Virus record (IMG/VR): IMGVR_UViG_3300047463_000005
Coordinates: 1-29,941 of that record
Reading direction: 5' to 3' (one strand)
Source: a virus
DNA length: 29,941 nt
The translations under genes were made by a program, and so were the position numbers. Every line of letters begins with the position of its first letter. Within the stretch, counting starts at the first letter, position 1. Below are positions 10,285 through 24,212 of the stretch, piece by piece. The notes beneath the pieces were generated by a model. The model did no database searches. It saw nothing but the letters and a program-made list of their open reading frames with translations, and was not told where the DNA came from.

Positions 10285-10737
10285 TTATCCCCTCAACTCA
10301 AAAGTCAGGTTCTTGTGCTTGGGGTAAGTCACTACCCGATCCCCTTCGGGGCACTTGTACTTAATTGTGGCTAGAAGCGTGGCTTTTCCCGCCGCCATGT
10401 CGGTCTTTACCGTCAAGGTATAAGTGAAAGTATCTATCTCAGGACTCGCAGGGCCAGAGAACTTCGGGTTTGAAGACACCGCCTCGTGGACCATGCCCCT
10501 CCCATCACGCACCGCTGGAACAAAAGACTCGACCGAACAGTCATCCCGCTTCTTGATTCTTGCTACCGTCACTTCAATCGGTTCCCCGATCTTGGCAGGA
10601 GGGATTTGGAAGTGTTCCGGTGCCCACTCGATGATCGCTTTATCTAACCAACCGACCTTATCTACGAGCGTATACCCACCACCTAAAGCGGCAACACTGG
10701 CAGCAACTGCTCCGATTGTTTTGGATACGTCGATCAC
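10285..10737 (-). CDS. Membrane-anchored periplasmic-type protein, 150 aa
   Basis: GTG start at 10737, chosen because GAGG lies seven bases upstream and the 23-residue frame ends in it (GTGA). Residues 6-24 (KTIGAVAASVAALGGGYTL) form a weak membrane or signal-anchor helix. The rest is soluble and beta-rich, with two Cys (CSVESF; YKCPEGD) that could pair in the periplasm, and strands such as IDTFTYTLTVKTDM. I do not recognise a family. Order (membrane peptide, this protein, holin, endolysin) suggests a lysis accessory or spanin-like role, but it lacks the coiled coil of i-spanins and I see no lipobox. Confidence 0.65.
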   Translation of the reverse strand: MIDVSKTIGAVAASVAALGGGYTLVDKVGWLDKAIIEWAPEHFQIPPAKIGEPIEVTVARIKKRDDCSVESFVPAVRDGRGMVHEAVSSNPKFSGPASPEIDTFTYTLTVKTDMAAGKATLLATIKYKCPEGDRVVTYPKHKNLTFELRG

Positions 10738-10805
10738 TTCGCTACCTCGGCCAGAACGAACATCATGACAACTAGAGCCATCATGAACCAGATTAGGTAC
10801 TTCAT
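10734..10805 (-). CDS. 23-residue single-span membrane peptide
   Basis: A tiny frame starts at ATG 10805 and ends at 10734. The peptide is MKYLIWFMMALVVMMFVLAE then VAK: Lys at both ends around a Met/Val/Leu-rich span of about 17 residues, enough to cross a membrane. It starts at an ATGA overlap with the upstream gene stop (10805-10802) and ends with a GTGA overlap into the next gene (10737-10734), leaving no spare base. That exact double coupling within the lysis cluster supports real translation. There is no independent Shine-Dalgarno, so it depends on coupling. It could regulate or assist the holin; function unknown. Confidence 0.55.
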   Translation of the reverse strand: MKYLIWFMMALVVMMFVLAEVAK

Positions 10806-11305
10806 TTCGGCCACGATGAGATGATGTAAGAAACTATATGGAACAGAATGATCCCCCCTAGACCGATTGTGACCAAAATCAAACCGGCATCTGAGGCGTT
10901 CCTGATTAGCTTCTTTCTCCTCCTCATCTGGTCGTAGATCATCTTTTCCCGCTGTTCCTTGACTCTCCGGCGCATCTGGATGAACTCGATGTACCCCTCT
11001 CTTCCTAGATGCTGTAGTGGCCCATAATGGAACCAGTGGTAGAGAGTCTTCTCCATCTCCTGAATCTTGACCTGTGCAGCGTAAGCATCAAAGGCTTCTA
11101 CGGTCGCGGATTTGGAGAAAGTGAGCTTCTTGAATAGAGGGACTTTCTTATCCTGCCCCATCCATTCCTGAATGTCGGCAACTGCCCCGGCCCATTTGCC
11201 GAGTTGTCCAAAGACGTCCTCGGCTTCTCGACCAATCTCCACCGCTTTCTTGATGCCATTGAAAACAGCCGTTGCGGTGGCAAGAGCAGTAACCGGATCA
11301 ATCAT
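10802..11305 (-). CDS. Membrane-anchored unknown protein of the lysis region
   Basis: The 167-residue product begins MIDPVTALATATAVFNGIKK with an amphipathic helix, then has charged helices (MRRRVKEQREKMIYDQMRRR) and a single C-terminal membrane segment at 140-163 (AGLILVTIGLGGIILFHIVS). The basic cluster just before the membrane segment predicts that the N-terminal bulk stays in the cytoplasm. Close relatives occur in many environmental podoviruses as conserved unknowns. It leads a run of small membrane proteins ending in a holin and endolysin, so a lysis or membrane role is plausible; an ejected virion protein is an alternative. ATGA overlap with the next, 23-residue frame. Confidence 0.7.
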   Translation of the reverse strand: MIDPVTALATATAVFNGIKKAVEIGREAEDVFGQLGKWAGAVADIQEWMGQDKKVPLFKKLTFSKSATVEAFDAYAAQVKIQEMEKTLYHWFHYGPLQHLGREGYIEFIQMRRRVKEQREKMIYDQMRRRKKLIRNASDAGLILVTIGLGGIILFHIVSYIISSWPK

Positions 11306-22857: not shown

Positions 22858-23784
22858 TTAGCTCCTTCGTGCTTCTTGGGCGTATCGTTTAATCATTCGG
22901 GCGCGTTTATCTGGGTCTTCCCAGAATCCTGCGTCCTTCATCGCTCGGACCTGCTCGGGACTCAATACAAACGAGTTCCCTCCTCGCGGTGATGATTCAC
23001 GACCGGATCCAGTAATTACACTTCTGGGCTTCCTCCTTGGTTCGTTATACTCATTGTACCTATGCGGTAATCGTTTCTGCAAGCGATTATCTAGTTCGTC
23101 CCAATACTCCTCGGTATTAGGATCCCAACCCTCCTTATGAAGACGTTGGTCGATAATCTTTGCAATCTGACTATCTTCGTCATTTCCGGCAGGATCGTAC
23201 CAAGAGTTGTTTTCCATCCACTGATTGGCATGACGCATCAGTTGAGGATTCACCGCACCCGTTTCTTGGGTCTGTGTCCTTGCGGCTTGCTCTTTGGCTC
23301 GTTTTAAGGCTTCTACACGACCCCGAGTCTCATACCAAAGCTCTTGAGCTTTAGCCATCTCGGAACCATTAGAACGATTCCCTGCCTCTGTCAGTTTAGC
23401 CATGGCGTACTGAAGACGCAGTTCCTCATCTTCAATCGCCTTATCTAGCCTTGCCAGATCAGAACTGTGCGTCTTTCTCTCGATTACCGATAGACGCTCC
23501 ATCAAGTCCTGATTCTGCCTCTGCAACAACTCCAGACGACGATCTTTCTCTTCGTTCGTCCGTTTGATCAAATCCTTCTTCGCCCTGCGTCTGGCCCGCC
23601 TAGCGGATCGTACAGCCTCGGTATCGTCAGGATGATCTTCGTCTTCTACCTCACCCCCGTCTGCTTTCCCTACAGGGGCTTCATCTTCTTCTTTGAGAAC
23701 CAAATCATCAGGAAGCTCTACAACGGCTGAACCGTCAGTCTCTTCTTTGATGTTCAGATCCTCTTTTACTTTAGGATCGTTCAT
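22858..23784 (-). CDS. Scaffolding-like acidic coiled-coil protein
   Basis: This is a 308-residue, highly charged protein with no hydrophobic core. Residues 1-58 are strongly acidic (LKEEDEAP, VEDEDHPDD), 62-190 form a long charged helix or coiled coil (RRAKKDLIKRTNEEKDRR, RLELLQRQNQDLMERLSVI), and the C-terminus is basic and Arg-rich (RRKPRS, KRYAQEARRS). Charge polarity, coiled coil and position between portal and capsid genes are the usual signature of a capsid scaffolding protein. I see no sequence-level match to a named family. It contains DGSAVVELP (17-25), shared with the portal, and KADGG (40-44), shared with a downstream basic protein. ATGA overlap with the co-chaperonin gene. Confidence 0.65.
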   Translation of the reverse strand: MNDPKVKEDLNIKEETDGSAVVELPDDLVLKEEDEAPVGKADGGEVEDEDHPDDTEAVRSARRARRRAKKDLIKRTNEEKDRRLELLQRQNQDLMERLSVIERKTHSSDLARLDKAIEDEELRLQYAMAKLTEAGNRSNGSEMAKAQELWYETRGRVEALKRAKEQAARTQTQETGAVNPQLMRHANQWMENNSWYDPAGNDEDSQIAKIIDQRLHKEGWDPNTEEYWDELDNRLQKRLPHRYNEYNEPRRKPRSVITGSGRESSPRGGNSFVLSPEQVRAMKDAGFWEDPDKRARMIKRYAQEARRS

Positions 23785-24212
23785 ACGAATGCCTTCATGG
23801 ACAAGGGATCAGTTGTTACCTTTGCGATAACTTCGTGATCGTTAAAAATGGCAAACAACGCAGGTTCTTCGTCGCCCTCTACCGGAACTTCCCACCTATC
23901 CCCGCCCCACTTGGGAACGCGAATATAGTCACCGGAGTCACACCAAGAACCTTCGGGCCAAGCCTGCATCGTGTCCCTGTGCTTGAAAGCCAAAGGACCC
24001 ATAGCAACGACTTTAGCCACCATGTTTTGCCACTTTTCAGACTCCTTTGTCTCTGACACCAGAATCAGTCCTCCTTGAGACTTCTTCTTAGCGCGGCGCA
24101 GTTGAACAAGGATTCGTCCACCAAGGGGAGTAGCACCGGGATCGACACTCGGGAATGCCCAAGCAAGTTCAGCTTCGTTAGAAGCTACCGGCTCATTCAT
24201 CTTCATCGTCAT
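23781..24212 (-). CDS. GroES-like co-chaperonin (Cpn10 family)
   Basis: The 143-residue product resembles the 10 kDa co-chaperonins that cap the GroEL folding chamber. PLGGRILVQLRR (29-40) matches the first conserved strand. KKSQGGLILVSE (43-54) looks like the mobile loop that docks on GroEL, with the characteristic Gly-Gly-hydrophobic triplet. VAKVVAMGP (66-73) and SGDYIRVPKWGG (93-104) match later conserved strands (V.aVG.G and GD.V.). Host GroES is about 95 residues and T4 gp31 is 111; this one has about 25 extra N-terminal residues and a short insertion. Its place between portal and capsid genes suggests it adapts host GroEL for the major capsid protein, as gp31 does for T4 gp23. Three near ATGs (24212, 24206, 24200) leave the exact start open. 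It overlaps the scaffold-like gene by ATGA. Confidence 0.8.
   Translation of the reverse strand: MTMKMNEPVASNEAELAWAFPSVDPGATPLGGRILVQLRRAKKKSQGGLILVSETKESEKWQNMVAKVVAMGPLAFKHRDTMQAWPEGSWCDSGDYIRVPKWGGDRWEVPVEGDEEPALFAIFNDHEVIAKVTTDPLSMKAFV

Follow-up and report, generated by a model that had tools for sequence, protein, structure and literature searches.

Few phage genes are as poorly conserved and as sparsely annotated as those for lysis regulators, and small membrane proteins that serve in this capacity are already known. In the Vibrio phage ICP1, TeaA acts as the holin and ArrA as the antiholin, and lysis is inhibited as a result (Hays and Seed 2020, PMC7182436). The arrA gene lies directly upstream of teaA. 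In phage N4, gp62 is a small, non-essential membrane protein beside the pinholin gp63 that alters the timing of lysis and is itself active on membranes to some degree, and the N4 lysis proteins are poorly conserved across relatives (PMC12642591). What is new in the locus described below is a candidate regulator of 23 residues, encoded by a gene that we call m, which is independent of the type of holin and shares its slot with another micropeptide.

The window (i.e., the whole stretch of DNA that was analyzed) comprises one IMG/VR virus record, 29,941 bases long, and the features discussed here are collected in Table 1. H161 is similar over its full length to ICP1 teaA (32.9% identity over 97%, E 3e-18; hhalign 99.7%, E 1e-25). 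H161 itself has no match to PF11351 (GTA_holin_3TM), and its relative in locus L051 passes the cut-off of that model (37.6 bits vs 24.8); aligned to the Hx137 set of holin-like proteins, which includes relatives of the L050 and L051 proteins, H161 reaches an hhalign value of 96.4%, and the holin type Hp170 aligned to TeaA reaches 4.2%. The m peptide has at least one membrane span, predicted from hydrophobicity only, and lies near an endolysin gene; of the two, H161 is, by its sequence, the likelier holin. No N-terminal signal anchor is visible by eye in the window endolysin. The first-pass annotation had placed m in a lysis cluster. That placement holds for the TeaA-type holin homologue and the glycosyl hydrolase 108 (GH108) endolysin, which follow two and three genes downstream; it does not extend to the two overlapped genes, A167 and B150, which are without known function. 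The AlphaFold model of A167 is of low confidence (mean pLDDT, 56.1), and the predicted structure of B150, possibly a periplasmic late protein, contains a beta-sandwich modeled with confidence and has no PDB match at an E value of 0.001 or better. We also considered B150, C134, and A167 (and Hp170) as ArrA-type antiholins and rejected them, given no similarity and hhalign probabilities of at most 0.5%. Two further observations concern the phage more broadly: H161, previously unannotated, shows where the lysis module lies in this group of phages, and a phage-encoded GroES-like co-chaperonin lies in the virion structural region of the window (23781-24212; PHROG 3188, E 6e-10).

Table 1. Features of the window around the micropeptide gene m, and positions of the second micropeptide, m2, in other loci
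Feature	Length	Location	Strand	Remarks
Endolysin	179 aa	9262..9801	-	Glycosyl hydrolase 108 plus peptidoglycan-binding domain
H161	161 aa	9798..10283	-	TeaA-type holin homologue
B150	150 aa	10285..10737	-	Hydrophobic N terminus, then predicted beta-sandwich
GTGA overlap	4 nt	10734..10737	-	TGA of m (10736-10734) and GTG start of B150
Micropeptide gene m	23 aa	10734..10805	-	23 codons plus TGA; translation MKYLIWFMMALVVMMFVLAEVAK
GAGGT	5 nt	10744..10748	-	In the Glu-Val codons of m; Shine-Dalgarno-like site of B150, duplex energy -7.2 kcal/mol vs background mean of -2.15
ATGA overlap	4 nt	10802..10805	-	ATG of m (10805-10803) and TGA of A167; stop-start coupling
A167	167 aa	10802..11305	-	Helical; C-terminal membrane span predicted by eye; PHROG 32327
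m2		L115 2462-2551		29 aa
m2		L118 1374-1463
m2		L126 2438-2542
m2		L131 2053-2148
m2		L134 2456-2551
m2		L140 2450-2542
m2		L147 2927-3004		Shortest; membership uncertain

The first-pass annotation had described m as a frame of 23 residues that starts at an ATGA, stops in a GTGA, and overlaps both neighbors, and retranslation reproduces this description exactly. The peptide has one predicted membrane span, at approximately residues 3 to 20, and the motif Leu-Ala-Glu (LAE) at its C-terminal end. An alternative GTG at 10814 would allow a form of 26 amino acids; because loci L049 to L051 carry a TAA immediately 5' of the ATG, we take the ATG to be the conserved start. Could a frame this short simply be open by chance? 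With the ends held fixed, the 64-nucleotide interior stays open in 19.6% of 5,000 dinucleotide shuffles, an observation on the side of a chance frame; none of the 5,000 was both open and as hydrophobic as this almost purely hydrophobic peptide, and among the 297 open reading frames of 18 to 45 amino acids in the window, m alone reaches its own hydrophobicity.

The question is better put to relatives. Scanning viral contigs with A167 gave 62 loci; where the downstream side is present, most of them show a frame homologous to m that follows the same ATGA. Scans with H161 and B150 yielded further loci. A profile search of all small open reading frames, together with neighboring loci from later pattern scans, brought the collection to 164 locus rows, which reduce to 58 distinct neighborhoods of uncultured viral contigs with m relatives of 23 to 24 amino acids (a count that excludes loci L218 to L221 and L268 to L274). 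The relatives share the features by which we define the family: 22 to 25 residues, one hydrophobic span, and Leu-Ala-Glu three residues before the C terminus. Forty-four distinct m DNA sequences were read completely; for the substitution counts, three were dropped first (the L052 type, a type with a deletion of eight codons, and L109), and the remaining 41 were reduced to 24 representatives of less than 90% identity. In these representatives pS is 0.67, with synonymous sites near saturation, pN is 0.32, and pN/pS is 0.48, a value that none of 100 column shuffles matched; the other two forward frames give 0.75 and 2.35. Variation is lowest at the second codon position (0.17) and highest at the third (0.58). 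The frame of the peptide is under purifying selection.

In the subgroup of loci with the order T113-m-C134 (L109, L110, L153, L155, L255, L262, and L266), an alternative frame could prolong C134, a gene of 134 amino acids, upstream through m. Might this N-terminal extension, which has an in-frame ATG, a Shine-Dalgarno-like sequence, and a product beginning with MADDAD, be the real gene and m its shadow? We rejected this candidate, as the substitution test says the opposite. In six distinct sequences (the count omits L109, which has a 12-nucleotide deletion, as well as the duplicates L251 and L255), pN/pS is 0.28 in the m frame, with none of 500 shuffles as low, and 3.69 in the competing extension frame, with 498 of 500 shuffles as low; the differences divide into 65 synonymous and 54 non-synonymous in the m frame versus 9 and 110 in the extension frame. 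Given 0.28 in the one frame and 3.69 in the other, selection acts on the m frame. The first-pass annotation had named conservation of the peptide as a check on the gene, and stops or shifts within the frame as what would count against it. The peptide is indeed kept where synonymous sites are near saturation, and disruptions of the frame are not the rule, the exceptions being the type with the eight-codon in-frame deletion and one deletion or fusion (L052). A chance open frame is refuted by this conservation, by the purifying selection, by the near-saturated synonymous sites in relatives, and by the mobility described below, such that its probability is negligible; on the evidence of these sequences, m is almost certainly a genuine protein-coding gene of the phage.

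Searches of Pfam-A, NCBIfam, and PHROG with m returned none at a meaningful E value, the best being 0.084 to a PHROG of 28 positions and of unknown function; models this short are scarce, and this negative is weak evidence of absence. A tblastn search of 50,697 phage records with a 24-residue m query found no matching isolate, short low-complexity queries being only weakly searchable, and a profile of m found nothing in the ICP1 region, the best of 610 small open reading frames from five phage regions having an E value of 1.7. Across 84,980 genomes of bacteria and archaea, the DNA pattern of the LAE end occurs in five stretches, none with an m-type peptide. Our search of the published literature found nothing on family m. 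Fremin et al. reportedly compiled a catalogue of small genes in phage genomes, and this catalogue may contain the family.

The LAE motif is kept strictly: among the 24 representatives, Leu19 is present in 24, Ala20 in 23, and Glu21 in 24. The exceptions in the family are Ser for Ala in L185 and, outside the representatives, Gly for Glu in L049 and L050. The Ala-Glu codons are GCG GAG in most members, which creates a strong Shine-Dalgarno-like match for the next gene, and in most members it is within the Ala-Glu-Val/Ile codons that the strongest such match of the next gene lies (mean energy, -7.6 kcal/mol in 45 contexts, vs a background of -2.15). The signal at the start of m itself is weaker (-3.8 in 48 contexts). 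Is the frame, then, a cis-acting leader only, one that brings ribosomes and a ribosome-binding site to the next gene while the peptide is inert? The position and strength of the match are what such a leader would predict, but L007 and L144 encode Ala-Glu as GCA GAA, leaving the next gene without a Shine-Dalgarno signal (+0.2 kcal/mol), and the residues are still kept. Thus, the Shine-Dalgarno signal is ruled out as the sole cause of the motif. Moreover, selection on amino acids extends over the hydrophobic codons along the whole length, the competing-frame subgroup included, and we regard a pure leader as very unlikely. The strict conservation of LAE suggests, at the level of sequence, a specific contact as opposed to bulk membrane activity.

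Where does m reside? The recognized flanks in the 58 neighborhoods are A167/H161 in 24, T113/C134 in 6, B150/H161 in 5, A167/B150 (the arrangement of the window) in 4, C134/H161 in 3, and A167/Hx137 in 3, followed by smaller classes, and the rest run into contig ends or have no recognized neighbor. m follows at least three different genes and precedes several, within the stretch that leads to the holin and endolysin; on these gene orders, m is a mobile cassette. The next recognized gene is H161, Hp170, Hx137, or B150/C134 in 56 of the 58, i.e., everywhere that one was seen, and in all 58, as far as the contigs show, m lies between a tail gene or A167 and a holin or endolysin; these neighborhood counts are biased toward such settings because the collections were fetched by neighbor proteins. 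When 2.9 million viral contigs were scanned with a DNA pattern, the scan returned 50 stretches, 46 of them on contigs that were already in the collection, as judged by contig name, and 4 on new contigs where m stands beside tail, C134, or holin genes, and it showed no other location. These results bear on the idea that m binds a protein of the host inner membrane (for superinfection exclusion or in a respiratory or secretory complex), with the lysis region being merely a late, well-expressed place. Small membrane proteins devoted to exclusion are common among phages, and that no tested phage protein constantly accompanies m is as this idea would have it. However, all 58 neighborhoods belong to the lysis stretch, and the pattern scan agrees despite the bias of the neighbor searches; we consider a host target improbable.

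The 5' overlap of four nucleotides occurs in 45 of the 58 distinct neighborhoods, and the remaining 5' junctions are longer overlaps (5 or 13 nucleotides), TAATG, a start-choice artefact (L017), or contig ends. At the 3' end, 48 contexts were examined and the next start was found in 45; it overlaps m in 44 of these, by one nucleotide in 27 and by four in 17, and lies 31 nucleotides beyond m in the one other context. Overlap with its neighbors at the ends, within the holin-endolysin region, is a property of the family, and conservation of both overlaps, which the first-pass annotation had also put forward as a check, is borne out. In 30 whole virus records, m was found as one copy in 15 and was absent from 15. 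L266, found later, has two different copies flanking C134 on the minus strand (ends 4767 and 5242 of the reverse complement).

Could m instead be the membrane partner of A167, which has a C-terminal membrane span of its own? The two genes are coupled by four nucleotides, and m is present in 39 of 44 distinct A167 3' neighborhoods; the five without m are L002, L003, L036, L053, and L058, and in the L002 type m is cleanly absent, such that the ATGA starts the following gene instead. Yet B150 or C134 can separate m from A167, and a search of 29 whole records that bear m found no A167 in 12, several of the 12 being short contigs. We deem a dedicated A167 partner quite improbable. In the same 29 records, several of them short, A167 accompanies m in 17 and F73 in 6, and none of the phage proteins tested is a constant companion.

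Several loci depart from the common form. An in-frame loss of eight codons within the membrane span, in L017 (3940-3999; L076 is the same contig), L025, and L079, leaves peptides of 16 to 19 amino acids. In L052 (3436-4410; L094 is the same contig), a deletion appears by eye to fuse the region of the A167 C-terminal span, the last part of m, and the holin gene in frame, with the greater part of m lost. In L112 (529-1005), B150 is reduced to a hydrophobic N-terminal stub of 24 residues that ends in the ATGA of m and is effectively another micro membrane frame. In L167 (2896-3001) and L251, C134 has an apparent internal deletion and the upstream m is intact.

In total, we posit that m spans the inner membrane once and serves as an accessory to holin-driven lysis, a functional reading to which we give a probability of roughly 0.45. 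In this model, ribosomes that finish the upstream gene would restart on the overlapping ATG of m, and the ribosome-binding site for the following gene would lie within the last codons of m; given such a layout, m would be made together with its neighbors. The peptide would span the membrane as a single helix, its conserved Leu-Ala-Glu lying at the membrane edge on the C-terminal side, and would pack there together with, or close to, the TeaA-type or another holin, thereby shifting the timing or the efficiency of hole formation. It would behave as an exchangeable plug-in and not as a part fitted to one holin. Consistent with this model, m lies before the holin and endolysin, H161 is a homologue of TeaA, whose holin function has been tested, and a second selected single-span micropeptide, m2, occupies the same slot in clusters that lack m. 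Counting against a lysis accessory, m has no invariant phage partner, its slot is sometimes empty, the eight-codon deletion in the span is tolerated (in three contigs), and the Shine-Dalgarno-like signal before m is weak.

The holin beside m is H161 in 38 of the 58 neighborhoods, Hp170 in 14, and Hx137 in 3, with none visible in 3, and the endolysins are of the GH108 types E2 (34) and E179 (6) or are phage lysozymes (14). The first-pass annotation had proposed a tiny regulator or partner of the holin. A conserved coding gene with recurrent overlaps near a true holin homologue supports this proposal in part, any regulation or binding of the holin by m being putative; the varied holins and endolysins disfavor a lock-and-key partner specific to one holin. 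The same variety also fits a peptide that acts alone in the membrane. The type I toxin peptides (Ibs, TisB) resemble m in size and extreme hydrophobicity, and one can imagine m as such a peptide or as a tiny holin, whose late, high-level depolarization would help to trigger any holin. An almost purely hydrophobic sequence that is kept while holin, endolysin, and neighbors are exchanged is what would be expected in the absence of a phage partner. The near-invariant Leu-Ala-Glu at the C terminus, suggestive of a specific contact, speaks against autonomous action, and we judge it unlikely.

What of holin clusters that lack m? A hydrophobicity scan of 50 distinct clusters of this kind found a recurring peptide of 25 to 31 amino acids, m2 (e.g., MNEDDKDVAALGFIVAVVGFTVVLLIAIL), in 7 distinct neighborhoods (13 rows), directly upstream of B150 or C134, and in none of the m-bearing loci. 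m2 lacks the LAE motif, has no visible similarity to m, and mostly carries an acidic N terminus before its span. Like m, it has one predicted span, sits in the same slot, overlaps end to start in most cases, and is under purifying selection (pN/pS of 0.31 in six sequences, with none of 200 shuffles as low); its profile E values are circular because the seeds were drawn from the same scan. We speculate, with the odds leaning against it, that the late region reserves a slot for single-span micropeptides, non-homologous but exchangeable, such as m and m2, joined to changing neighbors by ATGA and GTGA, that modulate lysis whatever the holin and endolysin.

That m persists while its neighbors, holin, and endolysin are exchanged, and that it has a non-homologous stand-in, implies that the smallest frames of the late region can be selected genes. 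Judging from the junctions, an array of genes joined by four-nucleotide overlaps may be shuffled gene by gene without loss of translational coupling. What is the minimum of protein needed to tune membrane lysis? As a compact, clonable peptide, m offers a means of asking this question.

How, then, does m compare with the systems already described? Unlike the type I toxin peptides, it resides in an operon-like phage array with four-nucleotide overlaps and has a conserved LAE motif. Relative to ICP1, the difference is in the proteins, as ArrA has 151 amino acids and A167, B150, and C134 are without similarity to it, whereas the order of genes is alike: a membrane antiholin gene precedes teaA, and small membrane-protein genes precede H161. 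In N4, gp62 has 109 residues and two spans and works alongside a SAR endolysin, in contrast to the 23 residues and one span of m; nonetheless, in N4 as here, a gene for a small membrane protein stands close to the holin, in a lysis region that varies among relatives.
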